A model generated the notes under the pieces. That model was not told the origin of the DNA. It saw only the letters and a list, made by a program, of their open reading frames with translations, and did not search any database. Of a DNA stretch of 31,729 nucleotides, positions 1 to 21,938 are shown piece after piece (position 1 is the first letter of the stretch; each line of letters starts with the position of its first letter). A program made the translations under genes and the position numbers. The DNA is from a virus. Location: the IMG/VR virus record IMGVR_UViG_3300029258_002923, positions 1 through 31,729 of that record. One strand, written 5' to 3'.

Positions 1-715
1 CTTTATCCCCAAAAAACAATATTCTAGGTGGATTACTAGTGATGCGTGTAACGAAGCTAGAAATACTATCCAATAGCCTTTTCTTATGGTCCTTTGTGAA
101 TCCTCCGAAATGCGCTTTAAGTAATAAGCAAACATTTTCGTTTGGCTTAAACTCTTCTACGAAAGCTGTTATTAAAGCCTCAAAGTTTTTTCTTTCAGTA
201 AAGTCACCATTGGAAATAAAAGTAAACTCTTTTTTGTTAAGAATTTTAGCTTTAGGTCCCTCAACTGTGAAATCTTTCTCTACCCCATAAGGCAATACAA
301 CAATCTTATCTTCCGGTATACCTGAGTTTTTAACCCACATTTCTTTATTGAAGTTACTAAACGTGAATATCTTCTCCATATTTAATAACCCATCTTTCCA
401 AGGCTCTGGAAGCTTATCAGTCTCGAACAGCGTATAACAATACTTTTTAGTACCCTCTACCAATCCTGGAAGAAATGCTTGTTGCTCCTTTTGATGCATT
501 ATAGCGGGAGTACCGGCAAGAATTTTAGTGTTTAGCATTCTTTTAAGTCTACTATCTACATCAACTGGTAAGGAAACTTTTTCTAAGTTCCAAGTATACG
601 CGTCATTTAAAGCTACTTGGACACCCATTTTATCTAACGCAATAAGAATGTTCCTCGTAATAACCTCATAGCCTGATTGCCCGAAAACGGGTCCGTGCCA
701 AATTAGCTGAATCAT
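1..715 (-). CDS. GT4-family glycosyltransferase, 3' end cut by window edge
   Basis: An open frame of 238 codons runs from an ATG at 715 to the window edge without a stop, so the C-terminal half is missing. The N-terminus (MIQLIWHGPVFGQSGYE) has the beta strand and glycine-rich loop of a GT-B fold. A middle stretch (LFETDKLPEPW, then FTFSNFNKEMW and a VVLPYGVEKDF segment) matches the linker region of GT4 sugar transferases and resembles the GT4 protein at 18689-19807 (VFETNKIDE, TPSNWAKE, VVPEGFDP), so the two are probably the same subfamily. The donor-sugar motif EX7E would lie beyond the window. Its ATG overlaps the stop of the upstream glycosyltransferase (ATGA), which implies coupled translation. 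The sugar donor and acceptor are unknown. Confidence 0.85.
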   Translation of the reverse strand, partial: MIQLIWHGPVFGQSGYEVITRNILIALDKMGVQVALNDAYTWNLEKVSLPVDVDSRLKRMLNTKILAGTPAIMHQKEQQAFLPGLVEGTKKYCYTLFETDKLPEPWKDGLLNMEKIFTFSNFNKEMWVKNSGIPEDKIVVLPYGVEKDFTVEGPKAKILNKKEFTFISNGDFTERKNFEALITAFVEEFKPNENVCLLLKAHFGGFTKDHKKRLLDSISSFVTRITSNPPRILFFGDK

Positions 716-1935
716 ATTCCTACCTCCTCTAATATTAGTGGGTGTCTCGTTGGATTTTCTAATTTGTCAAAATACGCAATCCATTTTTTACCTACTTCAT
801 CCCACGTATGATTCAGGGCGAATTTATAAGCTTTTTCCTTTAAATTTTCCCTTAGGTTTTCATCTTCGTACATCGTTATCATTTTAGCCGTTATAGCTCT
901 CGGTTCTGGTATAGGTCTTTCCGTTAAATACTTTCCTGTTAAATAATGTGCTGGTTCGACGAGTAACGACCTGTCGTCGCTTCCTAATTCTCCCGTAGCC
1001 GAATGATTAAGTACCAAAGTCGGTACCTTACATAACATAGCTTCAAGGACTGGGAGGCCAAAACCCTCACCGCCTACCGAGACTAAACAATCAGCCATAC
1101 GATACAAATTCACTAATTCTTTCTCTGGGGCTAATTCTACTGGGCTATTACCTCTAGCAATCTGTGTATAGAATATAATAGAGTTAGTTTGCGCTAAACC
1201 AAAAGTTTCTAACAAATCATCCATATTATGTCCAGCACCATCATAAAAATAAGTGTGTGGCCAGAACACAGCGTTAGGGCAAAGATTTAACTCTTGTAAT
1301 ACTTTCCATCCTTTAAGTAACTCAGGCCAATTTTTCCTTCCTTGGTTTCTTGCTACAGTTAGGAAAACGAATTTGTCGCTTATTTTGTAGCGTTCCCTTA
1401 GTTCATTTCTGTTAGCTTCGTCAGTAGGAGTAAAAGTATGATGGTCTACCCCGTGATAAATAACATCGACTTTATCTTTTAACTGTGGGAAGGTTTTTTC
1501 AAGTGCGTTCTTCCCATAATTAGTATAAGCTACTACCTTATCCATATATGGTATAACCTGGTTCCAAAAATTAGGTAATCCACCGCCTACCTTTTCACCA
1601 TCAACAGCCGTATAGCCAACCCACTGAAATAATCTCCTAACATTTTTATACGCTGGTTTAGCTACAAAACTGTACATCCAAGGGTCGCCAATCGTTAAAA
1701 CAGTATCCGGCCGTCTACTTAAAATAACTTCTTCGAAAATATCCTCACCAAAAAAGCTACCGCCGGTAGTGGGTATAAGTTCGAAAGGCCATTTCTGTTC
1801 TTTAGTATTCTTGGAAAACCAACCTAGATAAAATACTTTATGTCCATACTTCGCTAACTGTAAAGCTATTTCTCTGCCTACTCGCGCCATCCCTGTATGT
1901 AAATTAGGATTATCTGTCATCACAAGTATTTTCAT
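712..1935 (-). CDS. GT4-family glycosyltransferase
   Basis: The 407-aa product is a complete GT-B glycosyltransferase that likely moves a sugar from a nucleotide donor to an unknown acceptor in the host cytoplasm. The N-terminal domain begins MKILVMTDNPNLHTGMARVG, with the usual glycine-containing loop. The C-terminal donor domain has a TVARNQGRKNW strand near 193-203 and the EX7E motif EGFGLPVLE with both glutamates at 290 and 298, typical of GT4 retaining enzymes. The ATG follows AAAGGAGGAAC. It sits directly after head connector genes, where tail genes would be expected, and is coupled to a second GT4 gene. No signal peptide or membrane segment is visible. Confidence 0.92.
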   Translation of the reverse strand: MKILVMTDNPNLHTGMARVGREIALQLAKYGHKVFYLGWFSKNTKEQKWPFELIPTTGGSFFGEDIFEEVILSRRPDTVLTIGDPWMYSFVAKPAYKNVRRLFQWVGYTAVDGEKVGGGLPNFWNQVIPYMDKVVAYTNYGKNALEKTFPQLKDKVDVIYHGVDHHTFTPTDEANRNELRERYKISDKFVFLTVARNQGRKNWPELLKGWKVLQELNLCPNAVFWPHTYFYDGAGHNMDDLLETFGLAQTNSIIFYTQIARGNSPVELAPEKELVNLYRMADCLVSVGGEGFGLPVLEAMLCKVPTLVLNHSATGELGSDDRSLLVEPAHYLTGKYLTERPIPEPRAITAKMITMYEDENLRENLKEKAYKFALNHTWDEVGKKWIAYFDKLENPTRHPLILEEVGI

Positions 1936-4366: not shown

Positions 4367-5290
4367 TTACGTAAGAACATCGTCCAGAATATAACCGCAA
4401 GCTGTTGCTACAAGCTTTTCATCCTGGATAATCTGGGGCTCAATCATATCCCCTTCTCTAGCTTCCTCTCTCCAAGTCTTAACAACTACGCCGCCTTGGG
4501 AAACCCTAAACGTGTAGCCAAGTGTTAAAGCTTCAAGAGATGGTGCTGGTTCTACGTAACTGATTAACACATCATCAGGCCATATCCTAGAATATGACGC
4601 CGTCTGTCCCTGCTGAGCTGTATCTTCAGCTGCCATCGCAAGTGTGACCTTCAATCCGAAAAGGACCGGAGGCAAATCGCCGTTTACAAGAAGTTCCTGG
4701 CCACCAGACCCCGTAATCGTGTAACGGATTAGGTTTCTGATAGTGGAATCTTTTTTCACGACATCTTTAACCTGGTCATTCATCAGAATCGTGTTAGGTT
4801 CAACACCCGCATTTAGTCTAATGCTAGCTTTCGCACCGTCTATATCACTTTCAATAGTCGGGCTAGTACCATCCCATTTCGGGCTGGGGTTAGCATGCGA
4901 TAAACTACCACCAGTTACTAAATCTTTAACGCGTTTTTCATAGCCAAGATTTATCCACTTCAGCAACTTGTTCATAGTTGTTATCCGCGGACGAATCGGA
5001 GCATCTGAATTTCTGACAATTCTGTCAGGTACTAGCTTTTTCAATGCATACGCCTCACAGCTGTATGTCCCTGTGCTTACGTCCCAATCTACTTCATTGG
5101 ACTCTGCCCCTATTGCTCGATGAGTATCTTTCTCTTTGAGCTCTTCCCTGCTGAAAATGTAATACTTATCAGACTCTTTCACTACAGGAAGTACGGGCAG
5201 TACCTTATCAGCTACAAACATCAAATTACGATAGTGTATAGCCAAATTGGTCAACGGAGCACTTACATGTACGTTTGCTCGTTTAGGCAT
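4367..5290 (-). CDS. Major capsid protein, Mu/lambda gpE-like
   Basis: At 307 aa the size and location (after protease/scaffold and decoration genes) fit the major head subunit. The N-terminal part ANVHVSAPLTNLAIHYRN, followed by a VADKVLPVLPV segment, is typical of gpE-like capsid proteins, which start with this 'leading to ADKV-P-V-V' pattern. Later parts include a central alpha/beta domain with NTILMNDQVKDVV and a C-terminal beta-rich part with GYTFRVSQGG. The ATG follows GGGAGGAAAGTAG. It likely assembles on the nested scaffold protein and is matured by the upstream Mu gpI-like protease. Call based on family pattern plus gene order. Confidence 0.85.
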   Translation of the reverse strand: MPKRANVHVSAPLTNLAIHYRNLMFVADKVLPVLPVVKESDKYYIFSREELKEKDTHRAIGAESNEVDWDVSTGTYSCEAYALKKLVPDRIVRNSDAPIRPRITTMNKLLKWINLGYEKRVKDLVTGGSLSHANPSPKWDGTSPTIESDIDGAKASIRLNAGVEPNTILMNDQVKDVVKKDSTIRNLIRYTITGSGGQELLVNGDLPPVLFGLKVTLAMAAEDTAQQGQTASYSRIWPDDVLISYVEPAPSLEALTLGYTFRVSQGGVVVKTWREEAREGDMIEPQIIQDEKLVATACGYILDDVLT

Positions 5291-7840: not shown

Positions 7841-9765
7841 TAGTATTTCCTTGTTTTTTCGTATTGTTCTTTAAACCAAGTAGCATTTTTAAGTTCTGAA
7901 TACAATCTTAAATCTTTTATTTGACCGTCATATTTTTGTCCACCTGAATAAGCTAAACCAAAAAACATTGTAGAGTTCAAGGTAGTGTCAACACCACTTA
8001 AAGTTGCTGTACCATCAGATTCACCGTTATAATAATAAAGCACATTCCCGTCAGCGTCTAAAGTTGCACCCACAAATTGCCATTTATTAGCTACTAAACC
8101 TGTATTGGGTTCTGGTGAAGAATTTTGACCGTACTTTCCGATTATCAATTTCTTTTGCTTTGCGGCTGTTGTACCGCTGGTAGACCATAAAAAAGCATTA
8201 TTATTTGAACCTGTACCATAACCGAATAACCCCTGATAATTAACACTTACTGTATCGGGGTTTATCCATGCACAAATTGTTCTTGCACTTGCCCCTGCTG
8301 GGAAACCTGTATCTGTTCCCGTTATTTGACTTGTACTACCATCAAAATCCATGCTTTTACCAATAATGGTAGCCGTGTTAGTTAAAGTCTTAGCTCCGGC
8401 ACTTAAATCTTTCGTCCCATCCAAAACACTTAACTCAAGACTGTCATCCGGTACACCTCTTGAGTATTCAGAAGCTACCCAATCTGCGGTTTTAGCTTCT
8501 GAATATATCCGGACGTCTTTTATCTCCCCGTCAAAAAATCTATCAAGTGCATATTGTTTACCAATAAATACGTCTTGGTCAGAGGCTACGGTATGAGCAG
8601 TTTCGACTGCGGAATCTTCCTCGACCCCATTTACGTATATTTTTAAGTAACCGTCTGCTTTCCTTACTCCTACTACATGATACCATTTCCCAACAGCTAA
8701 TGTTGTCGTACTCACCACCTCTGTTATAGTAGACCCATCATCCACTTTAAAATATATCGTCGACCCGTTTTCCCTCTCGAAATTCCACCAATCGTCACTT
8801 GCCCCGTCATCATATTGCCCTAATACACAATCATAACTACCGTTTGCAGCAGGTTTAACCCAAAAAGAAACTGTCATATCATCAAAATTAAAATCAGTTG
8901 AGTCGGGTATTTGGATGAAACTTGAAGTACCGTTAAACGTTCCACCTACTTTTTCTAATATTACATCTGTTGCCGTACCATCATTATTTTTGCTTGACAA
9001 ATCTTTAGCCGTTCCTGCTACTGACTTGTTTAGCCAAGCGCCTTTAAGCGTACTATCAGCTACGTCTGGTATTCTATCAATCGGTTGTTCAACTTCGGCG
9101 TAGTTAGGATAATTCATCTGAAAAAGTTGTTTTATTTCATCACCCGTCAATCCTATATCATATACTCTTACCTCGCCTATCAAAGCGTTTTGACTATATC
9201 TCCAATGGTCTGTAATCCAATATGAACCGATAGAACCATCAGTATTATCTGTAAACAAACTTCCAGAACAATCCGTTGATGCTGATAACTCACCGTCAAT
9301 ATATAAAGCTAAAGTAGCTCCATTATAAGCTCCCACAACATGATGCCATTCATTTATAGCGTATCCGTCTGCCGAAGTAACGGTTTTAAGGTTACCGCCT
9401 ATTTTTGCCTCGACTACAAACTTGTTAGTAGTTTTTTCTGTAAGCATCCTGTAATTTATATCAGGATAATCCCCTTGTTTTGCGATTATAAACCCGTAGT
9501 TCTGTGTTCCTCCTTCACCACCGAAATAACGAGAATATATCCAAAAAGAAACCGTAAACTCATCCGCACAGTCAACATCACCAAAACTTAAAGCGTTACC
9601 ATCATAAGCACCATCAAAATCAGCTACGCTCTTCCCATCCCATCTATCAGCATAAGTTTCTGTACCAGATTCCCATGTACCGTTATTCCCATACCCGGAA
9701 TAATCCTTAGCGTTAGAATTTAATTTCAAGTACGCTTTTAAGTGTTCACCATTTAATCTTTTCAT
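7837..9765 (-). CDS. Triple LamG-domain (concanavalin A-like) structural protein
   Basis: The 642-aa protein is three LamG-type jelly-roll domains in a row, roughly residues 1-215, 230-435 and 440-642. Each shows the family signature: an early F-(D/N)-G segment (VADFDGAYDG, GGTFNGTSSFI, SMDFDGSTSQI), a mid-domain FSVSFW/ARTICAW strand, W-x-H-V-V-G or WQFVGA, an LYIDGE/IYVNGV strand and a final I-x-D-x-R-(V/I/L)-Y strand (EVRVYD, DVRIYS, DLRLYS). LamG folds usually bind sugars or proteins. No signal peptide is seen, so it is a virion component rather than a secreted host-type protein. The start overlaps the stop of another LamG gene (TAATG). Likely a head or tail surface adhesin; the ligand is unknown. 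Confidence 0.9.
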   Translation of the reverse strand: MKRLNGEHLKAYLKLNSNAKDYSGYGNNGTWESGTETYADRWDGKSVADFDGAYDGNALSFGDVDCADEFTVSFWIYSRYFGGEGGTQNYGFIIAKQGDYPDINYRMLTEKTTNKFVVEAKIGGNLKTVTSADGYAINEWHHVVGAYNGATLALYIDGELSASTDCSGSLFTDNTDGSIGSYWITDHWRYSQNALIGEVRVYDIGLTGDEIKQLFQMNYPNYAEVEQPIDRIPDVADSTLKGAWLNKSVAGTAKDLSSKNNDGTATDVILEKVGGTFNGTSSFIQIPDSTDFNFDDMTVSFWVKPAANGSYDCVLGQYDDGASDDWWNFERENGSTIYFKVDDGSTITEVVSTTTLAVGKWYHVVGVRKADGYLKIYVNGVEEDSAVETAHTVASDQDVFIGKQYALDRFFDGEIKDVRIYSEAKTADWVASEYSRGVPDDSLELSVLDGTKDLSAGAKTLTNTATIIGKSMDFDGSTSQITGTDTGFPAGASARTICAWINPDTVSVNYQGLFGYGTGSNNNAFLWSTSGTTAAKQKKLIIGKYGQNSSPEPNTGLVANKWQFVGATLDADGNVLYYYNGESDGTATLSGVDTTLNSTMFFGLAYSGGQKYDGQIKDLRLYSELKNATWFKEQYEKTRKYY

Positions 9766-11018
9766 TATCTTGTCCTCATATATAAGTCTTCTACCTCAAG
9801 CGTGGTTAAAGCTTTATCATATATCCTTACGTCGTCTATGTATCCGGGCCAGTAAAGGCTGGTGTGTAAAGCTTTACCAAAATAAATATCATCGTTAGTT
9901 GTGTTTAAAGTAGTCCCGCCTTGATATACCTGTGCCCCGTTTGCATAGACCGTAATGTTTGTTCCATCCCACGAAAAAGCCAAAAACACCCATTCATAAG
10001 ACGGAAAAGAGTAACCTGTATTTACGTCACCCCACCGCCAAAACCATAGAACATTAGTCGTTTGAACATAGAACCCGAAAACCTTGCCTGTGCTGACCTC
10101 ACCATAAGCACAACCATGATTATGGGTATCTACACTATCTCTATAAACCCAACAGGTCAACGTTCTTACCGCATCCCCTGAAGGTAAATCAACACCACTT
10201 GTTTTTGATAAGTATTGAGTGCTACCGTTGAAAGATAAACATTTACCTCCGTTATGACCACCTACTATGGTCGGACTGTTCGTAGCAGTTAAATCGTTAC
10301 CTTTGTCTTTCCAGCCAGTATCTTGAGTATTAACTTCGCTCATATCCCAATGGCTAAAAAGGTTTTTACCGTAATCAAACGCTCTACCATGGTACATATC
10401 CGATATTTCCGTTGCCGACAACGCCCTATTGAACACCATTACGTCTTTTAACTTACCGTTATACGGGAAAGACCCGTCTTTTATCCTACGACCGAAACAA
10501 AAACTATAAGTATTTACATATGTTATACTGCCTGTTGCGTCTTCTGAAGCGTCTTCCACTCCATTTGCATAAAGTTTTAAGGTCGAGCCGTTATAAACAC
10601 CAACAAGAAAATACCATGTGTTTATCTGTGGTTCAAACGTACCTACCACTACATCTGTTGTGAGGTCGTTTACCCTGAAAACAAATCTTACAGGTTCAAA
10701 ATCTACAAACAAACCATAACCCGTATTACTCGCATCTAAGTCGTTAGAAACAGGATACATCCTTGTAGATGCATCAACAGGGAGAGCGTTTAAGTTTACC
10801 CAAGCACAAACAGTAAGTGCGGATGTAGGGTTTAAATCGGTGTTTACCCCACAATCTACATAATCGCCCGTACCATCAAAATTCAATGTTCTACCATACG
10901 GAGATTGAGATATTGTAGGATTTCCTGCAACGGTATACCCTTTATCCTCAAGCCCGTCTATACTCGATAAACTCTCTGCAAATACACAACTTGGTAATTG
11001 TTTAAACCTTTTTATCAT
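9765..11018 (-). CDS. Double LamG-domain (concanavalin A-like) structural protein
   Basis: The 417-aa product has two LamG domains, about residues 20-215 and 220-417. Domain 1 shows TLNFDGTGDYVDC, LTVCAWVNL, WYFLVGVYNG, LKLYANGVED and LKDVMVFNRALS; domain 2 shows CLSFNGSTQYLS, LTCWVYRD, WVFLAFSWDG, ITVYANGAQV and IDDVRIYDKALT. It is a paralogue of the triple-LamG protein encoded next. The first 19 residues (MIKRFKQLPSCVFAESLSS) are a short leader that may attach it to the virion; they do not make a convincing signal peptide. Probable carbohydrate-binding virion surface protein lying between the portal and protease genes. Confidence 0.9.
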   Translation of the reverse strand: MIKRFKQLPSCVFAESLSSIDGLEDKGYTVAGNPTISQSPYGRTLNFDGTGDYVDCGVNTDLNPTSALTVCAWVNLNALPVDASTRMYPVSNDLDASNTGYGLFVDFEPVRFVFRVNDLTTDVVVGTFEPQINTWYFLVGVYNGSTLKLYANGVEDASEDATGSITYVNTYSFCFGRRIKDGSFPYNGKLKDVMVFNRALSATEISDMYHGRAFDYGKNLFSHWDMSEVNTQDTGWKDKGNDLTATNSPTIVGGHNGGKCLSFNGSTQYLSKTSGVDLPSGDAVRTLTCWVYRDSVDTHNHGCAYGEVSTGKVFGFYVQTTNVLWFWRWGDVNTGYSFPSYEWVFLAFSWDGTNITVYANGAQVYQGGTTLNTTNDDIYFGKALHTSLYWPGYIDDVRIYDKALTTLEVEDLYMRTR

Positions 11019-12338: not shown

Positions 12339-14798
12339 TTACATTTCCTCCTTTTTAAATCCTTGTGGTCTACCCACTTTACTATTCTCTTTTTGCCAAT
12401 TATCTACAACTACTCCTCCAGCTTCTTCTACCTCTATGGTAGTAACTGGAACAACTGTAGACCTACAGTTAAAATGCGCTGGTGGTAGTAACACCTCGCC
12501 CTTCTTAAATATCTTACCATCCATACTCCTACAGTATTCCGTAGTCCTAGTATCCATTATAGAACTCCATTGCAAATAAGGAACGAAATCATCTACGTCT
12601 GGGTCCTTATACATCGTCATTCTACCTTCGTTTAGCGCCTCTGTTATGTTCGTCCTCGCTATCGTCTCTAGGCGTGAAGGAGTAACTAACTTCCCGTCTT
12701 TTATCTCCCCTGTCTCCAAATACTTACTGAATAAATCTTTAAGGCTATTCATCGTGTCTTTTAACAACCCATCCCTTATCCCTTTTTCTATAGCAAGTTT
12801 TGCCTGGTTTAAGATATACTCATTCTCTATCCCTGTAATGGTAAAGGCTCTCTTATCATAGTAACTTATCTCTTGCATCTTACCTATAGCCATTAACTTC
12901 TTTGGTTGTCCTTCTTTCTTTATCACCGCAATGACTTTTCTGTTATAGAAGTCTAGTGCTTCTTTTGGAGGTATGGGGTCCCACGGTTCAAGTGCGAAGT
13001 TACTCATAGAAAGCAACCCGAATTTCCTCTTGACTTCCACAGGAAACCCCACTTCCTGTATTTCCTCCAATGCGTGTAACTTTGAATCTAAATAGGTTTT
13101 GATAAGGTAGTCTCTTAACGTATTCTTAAACTCGCCTACGCCTCTTATCTGTAACTTATTGACATCTGTAAGATTCTTCTCGTACAATAACTTCTCCGCC
13201 TTCTTAAGTAAATCCTTTTTCCAACTTTCAAGAATAGGCGTTAAAGCTATTTTTAATCCATCAGTTAAAAGGTTTAGCTCTGCATCCATTCCTTTAAAGT
13301 CGACCTTCTTTTCAAACTTAGTAATAGGCCTATTTAACTGCATCTCTTCTTTATCATTTACCTTATCGATACCCTTATCTGGTATCTCTTTGTTACCCTT
13401 GCCCGGAGTTTCTTTAGGTGGGTTGGAGGGTGTGGGAGAGGTTGGAAAATTACCTCCGGCACTAATCGGAGGCGAGGTCGGTGTTGAAGAAACCTCTCCC
13501 ACTGGGGTTGCGTAGGGGTACTTATTCAAGTCCCTTTCCGGCAGCGAAAGATAATCTCTAACCCAATCTTCTCTTTTATCTATTAGATTCGCATCAGCGA
13601 GCATCTTAACGACTCTAGACCTCGCCTCAGTATCTTCATCTATTAAAGATTCGAATTCGAAGTTGGGTTCAATCTCTTCTGGTACGTCTCCGTAGTTAAG
13701 TTGTATCAAAGGCTTTATTATTTGTTCGCTTACTATCGTCTCTTCTATATCCCTCCCTATCATTTCAAGTACGAACATAAACACGTCGAAATGACTTTTA
13801 CCTAAAGCGTAACTACCCGTGGCTTCTCTAGCGTTAAACCCTAACAAACTAGGTACCAATATACTCCTAGCTATCATAAGGTCGTATTTATCAATAGCCA
13901 CCCCGTACGTCGATTCCCCTCTGCGTTGAGCCTCGAGTAACTCTAGTGTTATGTTATCCGGTATTCTAACCCCGCTCTTAGCCTGTAAATTCTTTAGTAC
14001 ATCATCAATCTCATCTATTGCTGCCTTACTTAACCCCTTCCCTTTGGCTGGATATTTCGCTATCGCAGTCGGCATCCCAAACCTTTCATTGAATATATTC
14101 CACCACTTTATGTTTAAGTCTTTACTCCACCACCCTCTATACGCCGCTCTCAAATCACTAACCCCATAAGGATTACCATGCTCTGAATTATAAGAGTATA
14201 TAACAAACTTATCTGGAGGATATGGATTAGTGTATGAACCCAATTCACTGCTATCATTAGCTAGCCCAGCTTGGTCAAAGCATATACCTATAATGTTGTT
14301 GTGGTCGTCTGTTTTGAACGTATACCCAAAGGGTTCTCTATTAGCTAACTTTACTAACCCTACTTTCCCTTTAAAAGGTCCATCCCTATATATGTCAAAC
14401 ACCTTCTCTGTTATGCTAAACCCGTAATCGAAGGCTGACAATATTTCTACGAGGTGTTTCTCAAACGTCCCTTTTAACTTCCTAAAGCAATATCTTACAA
14501 AATCCGCTATCTCTACACTTTGTGGGCTATTCTCATCCCCTGGCTTTACATCCCAGGTAGTTGACATCCTAGCAAACTTCTTAATAGTAAGGCACGCTTT
14601 GACTTGGTCATCCTCTTTCATTTTCCTGTAAACTTCTAACCCTTTCTTGCCTACAAGAGTGTCTGGGTTATACTTATAGAACGTAATGTTTGAAAATATT
14701 GACGACCTGTTGCCGCTTATTTCTTTACGTAGAAGACCATCGGTAACTTCTACCTTGTTTTGCCTTTGATATGTTTGAGTAGAGTATGGGTTTATCAC
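12339..14798 (-). CDS. Mu gp29-like portal protein fused to MuF head-morphogenesis domain
   Basis: The 819-aa product joins two proteins that are separate in Mu. Residues to about 435 are a DUF935 portal: DDQVKACLTIKK, a FDYGFSITEKVF segment, PFGYTFKTDDHNNI, and a GWWSKDLNIKWWNIFNERFG helix typical of the family. About 440-500 is a Pro/Ser/Thr/Gly-rich linker followed by KGNKEIPDKG-like charged repeats. The C-terminal third is a MuF domain with RLETIARTNITEALNEGR, WSSIMDTRTTEYCRSMDGK and a final PPAHFNCRSTVVPV. The portal ring admits DNA into the head; the MuF part is carried inside or near the portal. GTG start sharing GTGA with the upstream stop, with AAGGAG 6 nt before it. Confidence 0.92.
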   Translation of the reverse strand: MINPYSTQTYQRQNKVEVTDGLLRKEISGNRSSIFSNITFYKYNPDTLVGKKGLEVYRKMKEDDQVKACLTIKKFARMSTTWDVKPGDENSPQSVEIADFVRYCFRKLKGTFEKHLVEILSAFDYGFSITEKVFDIYRDGPFKGKVGLVKLANREPFGYTFKTDDHNNIIGICFDQAGLANDSSELGSYTNPYPPDKFVIYSYNSEHGNPYGVSDLRAAYRGWWSKDLNIKWWNIFNERFGMPTAIAKYPAKGKGLSKAAIDEIDDVLKNLQAKSGVRIPDNITLELLEAQRRGESTYGVAIDKYDLMIARSILVPSLLGFNAREATGSYALGKSHFDVFMFVLEMIGRDIEETIVSEQIIKPLIQLNYGDVPEEIEPNFEFESLIDEDTEARSRVVKMLADANLIDKREDWVRDYLSLPERDLNKYPYATPVGEVSSTPTSPPISAGGNFPTSPTPSNPPKETPGKGNKEIPDKGIDKVNDKEEMQLNRPITKFEKKVDFKGMDAELNLLTDGLKIALTPILESWKKDLLKKAEKLLYEKNLTDVNKLQIRGVGEFKNTLRDYLIKTYLDSKLHALEEIQEVGFPVEVKRKFGLLSMSNFALEPWDPIPPKEALDFYNRKVIAVIKKEGQPKKLMAIGKMQEISYYDKRAFTITGIENEYILNQAKLAIEKGIRDGLLKDTMNSLKDLFSKYLETGEIKDGKLVTPSRLETIARTNITEALNEGRMTMYKDPDVDDFVPYLQWSSIMDTRTTEYCRSMDGKIFKKGEVLLPPAHFNCRSTVVPVTTIEVEEAGGVVVDNWQKENSKVGRPQGFKKEEM

Positions 14799-15292: not shown

Positions 15293-16948
15293 TTACCAAT
15301 CCATGTTTGCCGTGTCTCTACCTCTATCAACGCCAGCACCAGAAACACTTCTGACTAATTCGACGTCTCTATCGGCTCCGCTACAACTTCCAGAGTAGAA
15401 AGCCCCTACTCCTTCTTCCTTTATCTTGCCGGCTATAAAGTCGTATATGTCGCTGTGAAAATAATGGTCTGCCTTATTGAACTCTTTATATTTTGCTACA
15501 TCGTTACCGTTTCTATCTTTCTCTACTACTCTTAATGGGGCTGTCAATTGACTTAAGAAATATGGTATATTCTCTACGTCAATAGGTAACAATACTCTTC
15601 TATGTTGATACTGTCCAACTACGTAATCCCCGGCTTGTGTCCTATTTATTTTGACTACGTCGTGCCCTTCTTCTTCGTCTTCCTCTATTGACAGTAACTC
15701 TTGACGTCTATCGTCACTAGGCCAATAATACGCTAGGTAAACTCTACCCGCAAACTTTGACTGGAACTCTTTTGCCTTTCTTGTTTCCGGGTTGGCGTCA
15801 ATCACGCAAACGTCTACGTCGTAGGCGTTCATTAGATGTTCTAAGTCTTCGAACTTTGACGTTGTGCCTATATAACAAGCTTTACGTTTACCATTTTCTA
15901 TTACACTTATCTTTATATTCAATACGCTACCTACGTCAACACCCATCGTGCAATGTTCCGCTACCGCTGGGTGTGTATACTCTCCTATGCAACTTCTTAT
16001 GTCTCCCTTTGATAGTCTATTGCCTTTAGCTGCATACGGTAAACCTAGGTCTGAGTTATAGAACTCTTGTAATTCAAATTGGGCTATCTTCTTACTATTC
16101 TCTATTAGCTCCTCTAAGTCTGTACGTTCACAGAATAGTTTGTTTATGTGATACCCTCTTATCTTTCTACCATTATAAGTAGGTACCCATCTCCCTTCTT
16201 TACATCTATCTAACTCTTCATGGCAATTACGGCAAACTACTTTCTTTCTTTCTACGTCTACGTTATGTTCAAATTCAAGTGTTTGCTCCATGCCGCAATT
16301 ATCACATACGATAAACCATTTACATTGGTCACTCTCTATGTACAACTTATCTATTCCTTCTTCTGGATAGGTTGGCGTAGACACTGCTCTTTGCCATTTT
16401 AAGTTACTATGTCCTAACCTCTTTTCTCCTCTTGCTAATGTTCCCTCGGTCAACTCATCTAATTCGTCATATAGGATACAGTCACTGTCAATAGTCTTTA
16501 GTTTATGAGGTTTACGGCTACCCCTGAAGTAAATAAACGCTTTCCTTACTTTCTTTAGTCCTATATTGTCAGTCACAGAAACTAAGCTACGTAAATAGTC
16601 ACAATCCTGTATAGCGGGATTGACTCTACCGTTAATGAAATCGCTTACTTCTGGGTCTCCTGGAAACACTACTGTTGAATTGTATCTGTGATGGTCAGCA
16701 AGCCATAAAGCTGAGTTGATAAGCCATTCGCTTACGCCACACTGTGCTGATTTACGTATAACTATGAAGGGATGTTTATCCTGGTAGATACCTGACAGGT
16801 ATTTGTGGCCTTTGAAACTGAAAGGTATACCTCTTATGGTCCTATACCGTAACGTCCATAGCGCGAGGTTTTCTTTCGTTCTTTCTTTCAAAAGCTGAGA
16901 TGAGTATCTCGTCAACTTTTTTTGCCTGCTCTGGCTCGAGGTGGACAT
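15293..16948 (-). CDS. terL: Terminase large subunit, GpA type
   Basis: The 551-aa protein is the ATP-driven packaging motor and nuclease. The ATPase domain has an adenine-proximal PFSFKGHKYL segment, a Walker A-like RKSAQCGVSEW (65-75) and Walker B CILYDELDE (157-165). A Cys4 zinc insertion (C215, C218, C239, C242) is characteristic of GpA-type terminases. The RNase H-like nuclease domain follows, with acidic residues in MGVDVGS, CVIDANPE and HYFHSDIYDF. Start ATG 16948 is supported by GGAGGG 8 nt upstream, and the first 60 residues match the family, so a 107-nt overlap with the small subunit gene is accepted. GpA types in lambda cut at cos sites; the end type here is not visible. Confidence 0.93.
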   Translation of the reverse strand: MSTSSQSRQKKLTRYSSQLLKERTKENLALWTLRYRTIRGIPFSFKGHKYLSGIYQDKHPFIVIRKSAQCGVSEWLINSALWLADHHRYNSTVVFPGDPEVSDFINGRVNPAIQDCDYLRSLVSVTDNIGLKKVRKAFIYFRGSRKPHKLKTIDSDCILYDELDELTEGTLARGEKRLGHSNLKWQRAVSTPTYPEEGIDKLYIESDQCKWFIVCDNCGMEQTLEFEHNVDVERKKVVCRNCHEELDRCKEGRWVPTYNGRKIRGYHINKLFCERTDLEELIENSKKIAQFELQEFYNSDLGLPYAAKGNRLSKGDIRSCIGEYTHPAVAEHCTMGVDVGSVLNIKISVIENGKRKACYIGTTSKFEDLEHLMNAYDVDVCVIDANPETRKAKEFQSKFAGRVYLAYYWPSDDRRQELLSIEEDEEEGHDVVKINRTQAGDYVVGQYQHRRVLLPIDVENIPYFLSQLTAPLRVVEKDRNGNDVAKYKEFNKADHYFHSDIYDFIAGKIKEEGVGAFYSGSCSGADRDVELVRSVSGAGVDRGRDTANMDW

Positions 16949-17498
16949 TTATGTTACCCTCCATCTTACTTACTCTACTATTACCAGTGTAAACGTCACC
17001 AGTTTGAAATAGGGGTACTTTGCCTTCCCTCTCTACCCGAGCTTTCTCAAGAATATTTGCTGCCTCGGTTAATTGGCCACCGTCCATAAGTCGAGTGTAA
17101 ATCTTCTCATATCTGGCTAGCCTCACTTCTTTTTGTGCTATAGGAATGTATGCGAAGTCAACTCCAAATACCTCTTCCCTTAACTCCGCTATTTTGTGCC
17201 TGTATCTATCTTTATACCAATATATTGTTGACAACTCTATATGAAGTTTACCGTAGTCGTATAGAAGCTTTTGTATCTCTGTGCCTGCGTAGCCTGCAGC
17301 AAACCATTTCACTATTGCTTCCTTATGTATATTCTTAAGTTTGCCTTTTGTCTTCTTTACTTCTTCTGGATTGGACGGTAAACAATTTGGATGGGCCTTT
17401 TCTATCTGTCTTATTATTCTTTCATTGATGTCGTCAAAGTTTACGTTCTTGTTTTCTTCTTTTTTAACTATCTTTTTTATTTCTTTGACGGTAGACAA
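16842..17498 (-). CDS. terS: Putative terminase small subunit
   Basis: The 218-aa protein lies directly in front of the large terminase gene and is the likely DNA-recognition subunit. Residues about 58-85 (HKEAIVKWFAAGYAGTEIQ, then a LLYDYGKLHI turn) read as a helix-turn-helix, and the middle is helical and charged (EKIYTRLMDGGQLTEAANIL), suited to oligomerisation. The start is a TTG at 17498 chosen for AGGGGAGG 5 nt upstream. A consensus promoter lies about 30 nt further up, so this is the first gene of the packaging-head transcript. Sequence identity with a named family was not recognised; the call rests on HTH and position. Confidence 0.75.
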   Translation of the reverse strand: MSTVKEIKKIVKKEENKNVNFDDINERIIRQIEKAHPNCLPSNPEEVKKTKGKLKNIHKEAIVKWFAAGYAGTEIQKLLYDYGKLHIELSTIYWYKDRYRHKIAELREEVFGVDFAYIPIAQKEVRLARYEKIYTRLMDGGQLTEAANILEKARVEREGKVPLFQTGDVYTGNSRVSKMEGNINVHLEPEQAKKVDEILISAFERKNERKPRAMDVTV

Positions 17499-17642: not shown

Positions 17643-17909
17643 TTATTTATCCCTTGTTTTTCTTCTTTCTTTATTTTTTGGTCTTCTTGTTCTTCTTTTT
17701 TCTCTATTTTTCTCTTTCCAAAAACACTCTGAGCATAGGCTGCTGCCTTTGTATATAAACGTAGCTCTCCTATTACACTCTACACAATAGTTAGCATACA
17801 TAATAGAATTTGTTTCGACTATTTTTAAGGGTTTCTCCTTTTTCATTTTTAACTTCTCCCCCGACATTGTCTTGTGCAAGTAAAGACTCTGGTTTAGTGA
17901 CATCTTCAT
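17643..17909 (-). CDS. Small basic zinc-finger protein
   Basis: I choose ATG 17909 (MKMSLNQSLYLHKTMSG..., 88 aa): it overlaps the TGA of the frame upstream (ATGA) and AGGGGT lies about 10 nt before it. A TTG at 17999 has no binding site. The product has one Cys4 zinc knuckle (CVEC, 13 residues, CSEC) and an extremely basic C-terminus (KNREKRRTRRPKNKERRKT), which suggests nucleic-acid binding. An internal ATG at 17846 behind GGGGGAG could yield a 67-aa form containing the whole finger. It is the last gene before the packaging promoter. Confidence 0.65.
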   Translation of the reverse strand: MKMSLNQSLYLHKTMSGEKLKMKKEKPLKIVETNSIMYANYCVECNRRATFIYKGSSLCSECFWKEKNREKRRTRRPKNKERRKTRDK

Positions 17910-18094
17910 TCTGTCTCTACCCCTATATCGGTAGTTGGCATAAATAATGAATTTGCACTGTAAACAACCGGCATAGCAGTTTGGAGTCCGTTTGTCCAAA
18001 TAGGAGCGGTAATGGACATACTCGTATTATCAGTTCCCGAAGATTCTTTTTTCTTTTTTGCTTTAGTTACTGTTGAACCTTCAGGAGTTTCTAG
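17906..18094 (-). other. 62-codon open frame reached by a candidate -1 frameshift
   Basis: Directly after the TAG of the 64-aa gene, the -1 frame stays open for 62 codons (LETPEGSTVTKAKKKKESS..., ending TDIGVETE) and stops at TGA 17906-17908, which overlaps the next gene's ATG. It has no start codon with a binding site; the only ATG in it (18019) lacks one. Together with the slippery heptamer, this suggests a C-terminal extension of the 64-aa protein, giving 126 aa in all. The extension has a lysine-rich linker and then a hydrophobic, proline-containing segment (ITAPIWTNGLQTAMPVVYSA). A decayed or wrongly assembled single gene is the alternative. Confidence 0.55.
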
Positions 18095-18285
18095 AAAGGG
18101 CGCACCACCACCTTTATTTGGTCTATATCTTCGTCTTTTAACTCTGCCTTTTTGATTGTTTTTATAGCAGCACTTTTTTCATCCTTAGCTATAATTATTT
18201 CGGGACTTAGTATCAATTCCTCAAGCTTACCGTCTTTCTGTTCTTTCTCTTTTGGTTCCTTTACGATTGCTACCCAAAAAATCAT
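18091..18285 (-). CDS. 64-aa small phage protein ending VVVRPF, possibly extended by frameshift
   Basis: The zero-frame product (MIFWVAIVKEPKEKEQKDGK...) has a first beta strand, a charged loop, a strand with SPEIIIAKDEKSAAIKTIKK and a final strand QIKVVVRPF. This compact beta-alpha-beta layout, with an A-K-D-E-x-x-A segment and an RPF end, is one I associate with small phage proteins of unknown function. GGAGG sits 7 nt before the ATG. The stop directly follows a slippery heptamer, so a longer product is likely made part of the time. It could be a major small structural or regulatory protein; function unknown. Confidence 0.7.
   Translation of the reverse strand: MIFWVAIVKEPKEKEQKDGKLEELILSPEIIIAKDEKSAAIKTIKKAELKDEDIDQIKVVVRPF
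18094..18100 (-). promoter_or_regulatory. Candidate -1 ribosomal frameshift heptamer C_CCT_TTC
   Basis: The heptamer has the X_XXY_YYZ form in the zero frame and is followed at once by TAG. A purine-rich AAGGTGG element lies 7 nt upstream (18108-18114), similar in placement to the Shine-Dalgarno-like stimulator known in dnaX. I see no strong downstream hairpin. Confidence 0.5.
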
Positions 18286-18688: not shown

Positions 18689-19807
18689 TCAGTTTTTATC
18701 TAGCTTCTTTAAAATTCTATCTAAATTTTTGGCCGCATTCCCCCAAGTAAAATCTTGAACAGCTTTAGAACACGTTTCACTCTTTCGTAAGTAATCTTCG
18801 TAGTTATGCGCCATACTTTGAAGTTTGCTAATAACTTCTTCCTGGTTCGGAAGATACCATTCTCCTTTGTCTCCTTTGTAAAATTTTCCATCATCTGCGA
18901 TTTCCCTTTCATAGTTTTCTATTTTTAATTCGCTTGGGTAGTTACCCAAATACTCTGTCATCCCGGTAACGTTGGTCGTCAACGCTGGTATACCGCAAGC
19001 TATACACTCAAGGAGTGGTAAATTCCAACCCTCTGCCTTAGACAACCATATACCGAAATCCCCACTTTCGTAAAATGAAGCCATTTCAAGGAACGTTGAA
19101 AAGCTTCCGATTATAAGTTCAATGGATAAGTTACCTTTTTTGAAATACCTACTGCCTTGACTAATAAACCCTTTATCAACTAAAAATCTAGTACTGCTAT
19201 CTCTCCAAGATTCGTCGAAAAAGTTTTGTATATGTGCCTTTAGTAAAACTTTTTGCTCGCTACCTGCAAAAGCTTTGTCGAAACAATCAAAGATATCTAA
19301 AGTACCTTTCCTTTTTTCGTATTTACCTACGTGTACGAAAGTTATGTAATCTCTTTTCAATAGTCTATGTAGTTTATACTCTATACCCCTCTTTGGATAA
19401 AAAATGTTTGGGTCAAATCCTTCGGGAACAACGTCAACTGCATAGTTAACCCCCGCCTTTAACACTTCTTTTGCCCAATTACTGGGCGTTAATAGCCAAT
19501 CACAATTTCGCATCGTAGTTTTTGAAAGTTCATCTATCTTGTTTGTTTCAAATACTGGGAAGCCTATTCTAAATGCCCCGCTAAATTGATTTAGGAAAGG
19601 CGCGTCAAATATCATTATCCCCGTGTCAAGCTTAGACATTTTTAATCTATTCTCTGTCCATACTTTTATTAAGTTATCTTTCCAAGCTACTCTACCAAAA
19701 GGTGGCGTTAAAGAAATGTCAGAGTTTAACTTACTATATGCTTTCATAAGGTTGTAAGTATGGACGCCATATCCTAAAAAGTTTATCGGACCATAAAAGT
19801 TTATCAT
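18689..19807 (-). CDS. GT4-family glycosyltransferase
   Basis: The 372-aa enzyme shows a GT-B layout: N-terminal INFYGPINFLGYGVHTYNL, a linker with FPVFETNKIDE and TPSNWAKEVL, a VPEGFDPNIFYP acceptor-side turn, a FVHVGKYEKRKG donor-domain strand (157-168) and the EX7E motif EGWNLPLLE with glutamates 259 and 267. It probably adds a hexose or related sugar to a glycan or protein. It ends an operon-like run of radical SAM, AKR, two methyltransferases and GT2, each separated by a few bases. Paralogous in pattern to the partial GT4 at the left edge. ATG preceded by TTAGGAGACTAA. Confidence 0.92.
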   Translation of the reverse strand: MINFYGPINFLGYGVHTYNLMKAYSKLNSDISLTPPFGRVAWKDNLIKVWTENRLKMSKLDTGIMIFDAPFLNQFSGAFRIGFPVFETNKIDELSKTTMRNCDWLLTPSNWAKEVLKAGVNYAVDVVPEGFDPNIFYPKRGIEYKLHRLLKRDYITFVHVGKYEKRKGTLDIFDCFDKAFAGSEQKVLLKAHIQNFFDESWRDSSTRFLVDKGFISQGSRYFKKGNLSIELIIGSFSTFLEMASFYESGDFGIWLSKAEGWNLPLLECIACGIPALTTNVTGMTEYLGNYPSELKIENYEREIADDGKFYKGDKGEWYLPNQEEVISKLQSMAHNYEDYLRKSETCSKAVQDFTWGNAAKNLDRILKKLDKN

Positions 19808-19815
19808 TTAGTCTC

Positions 19816-20466
19816 CTAACCGTTTCTGTCAGTTTCTACTTCTATCCACTTATCTTCGTGATATTCCATCCCTTTGTTATTTTCAGGCCTTGCTTTTATA
19901 TCATTGTTTACGTTATAGTACAAAGCGTTGTTAAATAGCTGTCTTTTCATAGTATGTTCGTGAGTCATGAAATATTCTTTAGGGACTTTAAAGCCAGTAT
20001 ACCCAGCGTTAAACTGAATTCCTTCGTGTATCTTTCCTGTCCACGTACTGAAAACCTTATTTACTAAACGCCATTGGTAGTCTATTCCTCTTTCCTCTCC
20101 GTCGAATATCGATTTTCTAAAAATTTGATACCCAGCACAAGTATCTGGGGTAGCTGTTACTAATGCTGGTAGTAGTGAATAGAAAGTATCGCTAAAATAT
20201 TCATCAACGTCTAGCCAAAGAATCCAGTCATATCTGCATTTAGTGTGCGCGAAGTTTCTTTGTTTGGAAAAGTCAAAATCGAATTTATTCTCTACCACTT
20301 TACAGCCTAACTTCGTTGCTATATCGATGGTTTTATCCTTACTACCGCCATCAATAACGACTAACTCGCCGACGTGAGGGGTCATATTTAGAATAGCTTT
20401 TTCTATATACTTTTCTTCGTCTTGAGCGATTATACAGCCGCTAATTGGTATTTTGGGGTTACTCAT
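19816..20466 (-). CDS. GT2-family glycosyltransferase
   Basis: I choose ATG 20466 (MSNPKIPISGCIIAQ..., 216 aa), behind AAAGGAGG and overlapping the stop of the methyltransferase gene by 8 nt. The fold is GT-A: ISGCIIAQDEEKYI, ELVVIDGGSKDKT with Asp39 and Asp44, and the metal-binding DXD-like motif WLDVDEYF (Asp86, Asp88). GKIHEGIQF resembles the acceptor-side H-E segment of SunS/WaaE-like GT2 enzymes. At 216 aa it is a minimal, single-domain enzyme with no membrane segment, so it acts in the cytoplasm. The substrate is unknown. Confidence 0.9.
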   Translation of the reverse strand: MSNPKIPISGCIIAQDEEKYIEKAILNMTPHVGELVVIDGGSKDKTIDIATKLGCKVVENKFDFDFSKQRNFAHTKCRYDWILWLDVDEYFSDTFYSLLPALVTATPDTCAGYQIFRKSIFDGEERGIDYQWRLVNKVFSTWTGKIHEGIQFNAGYTGFKVPKEYFMTHEHTMKRQLFNNALYYNVNNDIKARPENNKGMEYHEDKWIEVETDRNG

Positions 20467-21214
20467 CTTCCTCCTTTGTAACATACATTATCGTGTTATC
20501 CTCTACATTTATTATATTGAAGCTTCTAAATACCGTAGTAAAAGCATCTCTATATTCATCTAAAGTCGGCATCGTTTCTATAAGTCCAAAGTCTTTCATA
20601 TATCTTACTTTATCATCATCATTCTTCCCTACTCTGGGAGGATTGCCTTGGGAAATGTATGTACCTCCGAGTTTAAGAACTCTATTTACCTGCCCCAACA
20701 CTTCATACAAATATTCAAAGTGGTGAAGAGCCGAACAATCAAACACAAAGTCGAACTGCTCTTCTAAATAAGGAAGGTAGTAGCCATCCCCTATTACTGA
20801 AGTAAGATTCGGGATTCCTGTACCCAACAACTTCTCATCAATATCTAGGAGGGTTCCTTCTTTGGCTCCTTCGTCAAGAAATCTAGCAGATGCCCAACCA
20901 CTAGCTCCTCCTATCTCTAAAAAAGTCTTTCCTGTCGGTTGAATAATCTCTATAACCTTCGATATCATCTTTTCATTCATTTCTTTGCTTCTATTTCTTT
21001 CCTCACTCTTTGTTTCAAACCTATTCTGATACGATTGGCAACTTTGTTCAGCTTTTCTTACTGCCTCTACCTGCCCCAAGCACTTCTCCCAAGTAGCATC
21101 ATTTCTATGTGCATGTACTACACCATTAGAATCTACTTTCATCTCATAGTTACACTTAGAGCATTTATTCTTTTCTAAACTCTTAAAACAAAGAGGGCAA
21201 ACAAACTTAATCAT
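20459..21214 (-). CDS. Class I SAM methyltransferase with N-terminal zinc ribbon
   Basis: The 251-aa protein starts with a Cys4 ribbon (C6, C9, C18, C21). A Rossmann methyltransferase domain begins near residue 90: motif I FLEIGGASGWAS (98-109), acidic strand LLDIDE, motif with FDFVFDCSALHHF and a RVLKLGGTYISQG strand. SALHHF and LK-GG-TY are typical of type 11 methyltransferases acting on small molecules or sugars. In rRNA methyltransferases such as RlmA a similar zinc ribbon precedes the catalytic domain. Here the sugar-chemistry neighbours suggest a sugar or lipid-linked substrate, but that is inference. Confidence 0.85.
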   Translation of the reverse strand: MIKFVCPLCFKSLEKNKCSKCNYEMKVDSNGVVHAHRNDATWEKCLGQVEAVRKAEQSCQSYQNRFETKSEERNRSKEMNEKMISKVIEIIQPTGKTFLEIGGASGWASARFLDEGAKEGTLLDIDEKLLGTGIPNLTSVIGDGYYLPYLEEQFDFVFDCSALHHFEYLYEVLGQVNRVLKLGGTYISQGNPPRVGKNDDDKVRYMKDFGLIETMPTLDEYRDAFTTVFRSFNIINVEDNTIMYVTKEEDE

Positions 21215-21242: not shown

Positions 21243-21938
21243 CTACCTTGCTCCTGTCTCAAATATAACTGGGTCGGTATTGTTTATTCTTTTCAAACCA
21301 AATTCTTTTAAAGTTGCTGGGTCTCTCCTATCTAAAAGGGTCATCCAACCAAAGTTCTTTTCTATATGCATAGGATGAGCGTTGTTTGGATTAGAAGGGT
21401 CTACTCTCAAAACTAAATATCTACTTTTTTCTGCTATTAAGTGTAAGGCCTCTTTAGCTCTCTCAATATGCTCTAAAACAGCTATACAGATACAAACGTC
21501 GACTAATGGGAGGTTTACTGTTGGTAATTCTGTTTCTTCTGAGATTGTTATGAATTTTACCCTATCCTCAAACCCTCTTTTCTTAAGTCTCCACCTCATA
21601 TAGTCTATGTGCGGCCCCTCAATATCGACAGCTGTTACTTCATCCATTCCGCACTCTAATAACTTTATAACTTCAGACCCTATACCGCAACCATAATCCA
21701 TAGCCGTCTTACAATTATACTTTCTTATAAAATTTTCAATTTCCCTTTGGTATTCTTCTTTACAAGTAGAATTTTCAAAGTTAGTTAAGTCATACAAGTA
21801 AAAGTCCGTACTTTTGTAGAATTGAACTACATTTCTTCTGGTTTTCCATATTTCGTTTATGTTAATTTCTGAAAACTTCTTCTCGCAATCTTCAACAGAA
21901 GTTCCCAAATACTCGCTTAATTCTTTAAACTGTTCCAT
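21243..21938 (-). CDS. Class I SAM-dependent methyltransferase
   Basis: This 231-aa enzyme has motif I AMDYGCGIGSEV (79-90), the acidic strand AVDIEGPHIDYM, and a motif IV-like VDVCICIAVLEHI followed by a helix, all typical of small-molecule methyltransferases. The first 70 residues are helical (YLGTSVEDCEKKFSE) and may cover the active site. The sequence differs clearly from the zinc-ribbon methyltransferase that follows, so it is not a recent duplicate. Its ATG overlaps the AKR-like gene by 22 nt, after GGAGGTAGTAGGGTT. The substrate is probably a sugar or polyol made by the same cassette. Confidence 0.88.
   Translation of the reverse strand: MEQFKELSEYLGTSVEDCEKKFSEININEIWKTRRNVVQFYKSTDFYLYDLTNFENSTCKEEYQREIENFIRKYNCKTAMDYGCGIGSEVIKLLECGMDEVTAVDIEGPHIDYMRWRLKKRGFEDRVKFITISEETELPTVNLPLVDVCICIAVLEHIERAKEALHLIAEKSRYLVLRVDPSNPNNAHPMHIEKNFGWMTLLDRRDPATLKEFGLKRINNTDPVIFETGAR

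Follow-up and report, generated by a model that had tools for sequence, protein, structure and literature searches.

A probable programmed -1 ribosomal frameshift site abutting the stop codon of a small phage gene

Phage proteins that gain a tail through programmed frameshifting are already known from gene 10 of T7 and T3, from the Listeria phages PSA, A118 and A500, and from gpG/gpGT of lambda (PMC5009743). In T7 (10A/10B) and T3, a structural gene yields a minor, C-terminally extended form through a -1 shift close to its end (PMC5009743), and in lambda a small protein receives a frameshifted C-terminal extension, an arrangement common across tailed phages. The Listeria phages shift at a proline codon at or next to the stop, and corresponding genes, encoding capsid and tail-shaft proteins, use +1 at CCC_UGA in some cases and -1 in others (PMC5009743). 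The sequence C_CC.U_UU.C is reported to support high-level -1 frameshifting in E. coli, with H_HH.U_UU.Y in the most efficient class; Shine-Dalgarno (SD)-like sequences 6-17 nt upstream are known stimulators, and a downstream hairpin or pseudoknot is not obligatory in bacteria (PMC4066793). Slippage of +1 at a stop requires or favours TTT and TGA (PMC12421855, PMC5009743), and TTTTTGA variants of the prfB site are known (PMC12421855).

The locus described here lies in a window (the whole stretch of DNA analysed, 31,729 nucleotides) that is a single 31.7-kb metagenomic viral contig with its main genes on the minus strand. An earlier note had read the end of a 64-aa ORF in this window as a candidate -1 frameshift site and, on the comparison of sequences reported below, we consider it very probable that this small phage gene ends in a programmed -1 ribosomal frameshift site. 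The features of the junction are as follows.

18094..18285, minus strand: zero-frame domain of 64 aa, stop TAG at 18091..18093 (ORF translation and 32-sequence alignment)
18094..18100, minus strand: slippery heptamer C_CCT_TTC, zero-frame codons CCT TTC (base-by-base check)
18091..18093, minus strand: zero-frame stop TAG, directly abutting the heptamer
18108..18114, minus strand: SD-like AAGGTGG, candidate stimulator, ending 7 nt before the heptamer
17909..18094, minus strand: -1 frame extension of 62 codons, LETPEG...MPVVYSANSLFMPTTDIGVETE, stop TGA at 17908..17906
17936..17968, minus strand: tail motif region VVYSANSLFMP of the extension, counterpart of the family motif (T/S/V)Y-x-A-S-x-L (boundaries approximate)

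The ORF (18285..18091) has AAGGAGG before its ATG and ends GTG CGC CCT TTC TAG. Base by base, CCCTTTC (18100..18094) is a zero-frame X_XXY_YYZ heptamer touching the stop (TAG, 18093..18091), as the earlier note had stated. After the heptamer the -1 frame reads CTA GAA ACT CCT GAA GGT (LETPEG) and stays open for the 62 codons claimed, to a TGA (17908..17906) that overlaps an ATG (17909..17907) as ATGA; translation gives the proposed 126-aa fused product. The same frame is already open from 18178, so that roughly 26 codons of it overlap the 3' end of the first ORF.

The 64-aa ORF lies just upstream of a presumed small terminase gene, the terminase large subunit (TerL) gene and the portal gene, with one small Cys-rich ORF intervening; head protease, scaffold and major capsid genes follow beyond the portal.

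17643..17909, minus strand: small Cys-rich (zinc-ribbon-like) ORF downstream of the extension, first ATG shared with the extension stop (ATGA)
16842..17498, minus strand: presumed small terminase ORF
15293..16948, minus strand: TerL (phrog_675, 2.5e-107)
12339..14798, minus strand: portal ORF, 819 aa (phrog_113 match at residues 46-509)
4367..5290: major capsid gene (phrog_1005, 1.3e-57)

The overlap with the next gene's ATG that had been described is present, but that gene's start there is only a candidate, because a later ATG at 17846 has GGGGGAG before it. This position, upstream of terminase and portal, differs from that of lambda gpG/gpGT, which lies between the tail tube and tape measure genes, and the Pfam and PHROG searches gave no match to known chaperone families better than E about 0.02. 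There is a 107-nt overlap between the presumed small terminase ORF and the beginning of the TerL ORF, and one true start may be elsewhere. The C-terminal third of the portal ORF (residues 584-809) matches head morphogenesis / minor head protein families, making it a portal-head morphogenesis fusion. Between the replication and packaging genes there are, by reading, glycosyltransferase-like ORFs (18689..19807 and 19816..20484, minus strand) and methyltransferase-like ORFs (20459..21214 and 21243..21938, minus strand), and a further glycosyltransferase (712..1935, minus strand) is a PHROG match. A 417-aa virion-like protein (9765..11018, minus strand) has the C-terminus YIDDVRIYDKALTTLEVEDLY, which recalls the ends of LamG/concanavalin-type domains.

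The single window protein, the window TerL and a two-sequence alignment, used as queries for related loci, gave no matches, and the window extension had no phage match. IMG/VR and the species genomes were scanned at the DNA level for the pattern D-x-h-x-V-h-V-R-P-F-stop with all synonymous codons free, and for a second codon-free pattern, an Ala/Ser/Pro/Thr variant; candidates were then filtered with a protein-domain profile. These codon-unconstrained scans yielded 24 non-redundant homologues. A scan that required the heptamer added approximately 10 members, which for that reason carry no weight for heptamer conservation and were left out of the heptamer statistic. About a dozen TCCATTT pattern matches were set aside as unrelated, since they had no homologous ORF and their -1 frames ended after 8-22 codons. 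The family comprises 34 further loci (35 with the window), with 19-52% identity to the window protein where aligned and G+C contents of 32 to 69%; clustering at 60% identity divides the 32 aligned members into 22 clusters, and the median pairwise identity among these members is 34%. A tblastn search against 50,697 named phage records returned a single match, a 735-kb uncultured phage (LR756501/LR756503). With 32 members as input, no Pfam family was found, PHROG gave nothing above noise, and no match was better than E about 0.02; PDB sequence and Rfam searches gave no matches.

The earlier note had set out two patterns that would speak against a frameshift: one continuous frame in relatives, or homologues that keep the first gene and lack the -1 frame. 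A continuous frame is absent from every orthologue (35 loci), and the first gene is accompanied by a -1 site and an open -1 frame in 31 orthologues and by a +1 site and +1 extension in the other 4; the only exceptions to either statement are extra, weakly matching copies in two genomes, described below. Since the window is a single metagenomic contig, a sequencing or assembly error or a recent frameshift mutation could be suspected of having split one continuous gene, but more than 30 contigs and the named 735-kb record are split in the same way at this very codon, and this explanation is vanishingly improbable.

The site itself is conserved at the level of codons. CGC_CCT_TTY_stop was found in 19 of the 24 homologues from the codon-unconstrained scans and CCC_TTT_TGA in 4 (L021, L114, L127 and L130). 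L138 reads CGT_CCT_TTT_TAA, with a -1 frame that is still open for 69 codons, and the protein of the 735-kb phage ends DVIVRPF, encoded at its end by GTG CGC CCT TTT TAA. It is exceedingly unlikely that RPF-stop is merely a conserved peptide end, with the CCT codons and the open frames reflecting chance or overlapping-gene effects. VRPF is invariant at the protein level in the 32-sequence alignment, as a conserved peptide end would be, but its synonymous codons are fixed against local usage: from each phage's own codon usage CGC-CCT is expected in 0.73 of 23 homologues (the set without L127; P=2.6e-27, independence assumed). The homologues are not independent and such P-values are only indicative; kinship weakens this one but is unlikely to erase the effect, because the family spans 22 clusters at a median identity of 34%. 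L015 and L017 have CGC at the junction yet no other CGC in the stretch examined. Moreover, no homologue was found with a Lys, Ser, Asn or AGR codon before CCN TTY, and a scan for AGN/AAN preceding CCN TTY returned 7 stretches, none of them homologous.

The stop codon is equally fixed in position. A profile-derived scan without a stop in its pattern returned only stop-ending members, and an abutting stop is present in all family members found. The slip site always touches the stop, in contrast to T7 and T3, and its distance of 0 nt compares with a reported mean of 26-36 nt in tail assembly genes (PMC10885494). A fixed stop position might also be expected of stop-codon readthrough or a recoded stop leading to a zero-frame extension; against this, the -1 type members use all three stops (TGA 11, TAA 10, TAG 9) and their zero frame is soon closed, at a median of 17 codons (7 in the window), leaving this explanation almost no probability.

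Beyond the site, each of the 31 -1 type members has at least 42 open codons in the -1 frame. In the 30 of these counted frame by frame (window counted once; a further contig, L100, with 78 codons, falls outside the count), it continues for a median of 67 codons (minimum 42), compared with the median of 17 for zero-frame readthrough and 13 for the +1 frame. Openness carries less weight than it might seem to: of 222 ordinary gene ends in these loci, 49% show 43 or more open codons in that relative frame, a control that favours the conserved-peptide-end explanation; the chance that all members have an open frame under this control is about 8e-10. On the sequences compared, a single 62-codon open frame is not beyond chance, whereas its conservation across the family is far beyond chance. 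The extension proteins are themselves conserved, which also argues against a mere peptide end. Extension dN/dS is modestly below 1 (0.27/0.56 and 0.42/0.72), with the L009/L016 pair above 1 on a poor alignment.

It is very unlikely that the -1 frame is a gene in its own right, read by ribosomes that re-initiate past the abutting stop or begin at an internal start. Overlapping gene ends are common in phages, the extra copy L089 has a downstream -1 frame with its own ATG and GGAGG, and the earlier note's remark that the window -1 frame has no usable start was overstated, as in-frame ATGs occur at 18019, 17974 and 17941; the first of these, however, lacks a Shine-Dalgarno sequence and lies 25 codons inside the extension. 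The extensions of L075 and L080 contain no ATG, GTG or TTG anywhere, so canonical independent initiation is excluded there, and in L017, L018 and L138 the first start codon comes 37-54 codons into the extension. The -1 frame of the 735-kb phage continues for 188 codons past the site and is collagen-like (Pfam Collagen, 8.2e-9, extension residues 33-87), and the Collagen match starts before the first start codon of the extension (codon 51). An independent gene would, in addition, leave both the CGC_CCT conservation and the codon-linked switch of frame in L021, L114, L127 and L130 unexplained.

This switch is regarded as the strongest single argument for frameshifting from the sequences. In L021 the -1 frame closes after 8 codons and the +1 frame carries the extension, which is 67% identical over 81 codons to the -1 extension of L022; +1 extensions with a Tyr-containing tail are present in L114, L127 and L130 as well. 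In each of the four, TTT precedes a TGA stop, a combination that would let tRNA-Phe re-pair one base forward. From these sequences, the direction of the shift appears to have changed in the four CCC_TTT_TGA homologues while the fusion was kept. The extension follows the frame as the codons switch, so what is conserved is the fused protein, whichever frame holds the tail. A slip at TTT_TGA beside the stop, with TGA only, recalls the prfB +1 site, but in the +1 members an SD-like GAGGT/CGGTGG lies approximately 10-12 nt upstream of TTT (the prfB spacing is 3 nt) and the protein concerned belongs to a phage and is not known to be linked to RF2. The Listeria phage genes encode different proteins from this family, in which the toggle is made through synonymous R-P-F-stop codons, CGC_CCT_TTY vs CCC_TTT_TGA.

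The lysine-rich linker and hydrophobic tail attributed to the extension by the earlier note hold for the window but not for the family, whose extensions have a Ser/Thr/Gly/Ala-rich body and, in most members, a C-terminal (T/S/V)Y-x-A-S-x-L-like motif (e.g. TYASASNII, VYASASSLL and SYTASNLV; VVYSANSLF in the window). A regular expression for the motif matched 19 of 34 tails, compared with a mean of 5.4 and a maximum of 12 over 1000 shuffles, but it was chosen after the data had been seen and the motif is therefore treated as descriptive; it is weak in L002, L130 and L082.

The extra, weaker copies occur in two genomes (G023 and G003), and three such copies have no shift site. In G023, copy L106 is fused in frame to another C-terminal segment via VLVSPF-AGGSR, with the codons AGC CCG TTC, so the slippery codons are gone where a shift is not needed; its tandem neighbour ends VVRAL. 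In G003, the extra copy L089 reads CGT CCC TTC TGA at the junction. These copies fit a domain that, judging from their sequences, may carry different tails or none. The L106 tandem copies are located at bases 320..988 of a 159-kb phage contig, the in-frame C-terminal segment has 77 residues, and the same contig also has a frameshift copy 56 kb away.

AAGGTGG lies 7 nt upstream of the window heptamer as described earlier, and its suggested role as a stimulator is backed by pairing to the anti-SD upstream of the site across the family, which averages -6.1 kcal/mol compared with -4.3 kcal/mol for synonymous resampling (p=1.8e-4, 31 members); several members have no counterpart of the SD-like element. 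Downstream RNA folding is scattered (mean z -0.8, SD 1.7), with no common structure across the family. In the proposed mechanism, the majority of ribosomes would stop at TAG and release the 64-aa protein, and a minority would move back by one base on C_CCU_UUC, where tRNA-Pro would re-pair to CCC and tRNA-Phe to UUU, a slip aided by pairing of the upstream AAGGUGG with 16S rRNA. The slipped ribosomes would read 62 more codons to give the 126-aa fusion. The domain would thus exist in two forms, one short and a rarer one with an S/T/G-rich tail and a conserved Tyr-containing C-terminal peptide. The stop codon would probably be in the A site or beside it when slippage takes place: the distance from site to stop is always 0, from which we infer that the stop is in or entering the A site and that termination and slippage compete. 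Sequence comparison establishes the conservation of site, open frame and fusion, even across the change of direction; the timing of slippage, the ratio of products and the role of the fusion are what we infer from it.

An AlphaFold2 model from 32 sequences (pLDDT 86.7) predicts a three-stranded alpha/beta domain, beta-(short helix)-beta-alpha-alpha-beta, in which VRPF ends the last strand. Structural matches to PurS, PII, ribosomal LX, phi29 p6, T7 Gp2 and a phicrAss001 vertex chain were rejected as common alpha/beta folds (best Z 6.5, Foldseek E at least ~0.1), and with only such folds matched at weak scores we do not assign the domain to a fold family. In the window and in seven further loci, with several different terminase families, the gene lies 0.4-4.5 kb upstream of the terminase large subunit or portal gene, and in other loci the neighbouring genes look, by reading, like those for a methyltransferase, integrase, polymerase or lysis-type protein. 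One large subunit, in L093 (9216..12515), is 1100 aa long, and its family matches are split around a stretch that is intein-like by reading.

The position of the gene and the composition of the tails suggest, tentatively, that the fusion is the minor, longer version of a virion- or packaging-associated protein. This role is preferred because the gene is near terminase or portal and the tails resemble virion display segments (S/T/G-rich, one of them collagen). By analogy with T7 10A/10B, the preferred reading of the tail is a display or docking segment. Gene 10 of T7 and T3 encodes the major capsid protein, whereas the carrier in the window is a 64-aa domain for which no capsid similarity was found, and the capsid gene is elsewhere.

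No description of this gene family was found in the open-access literature covered by the search. What is new is the family itself, a slip site always at zero distance from the stop, and the synonymous -1/+1 toggle at one junction. Taken as a whole, the locus may possibly represent an undescribed family that combines stop-locked (0 nt), termination-coupled slippage, synonymous -1/+1 retuning, and a variable tail with a conserved C-terminal docking peptide, although we hold this fuller picture with less than even confidence. If the termination-coupled reading is true, the level of extension would report, or be regulated by, the supply of host release factor. A single junction that uses -1 or +1 through synonymous changes is a natural experiment on the evolution of frameshift direction, and the family also bears on the effect that an A-site stop codon has on slippage. 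Annotation pipelines would call the short ORF only and miss the extension, and family libraries do not hold the gene; the finding flags a widespread phage protein that often adjoins packaging genes.
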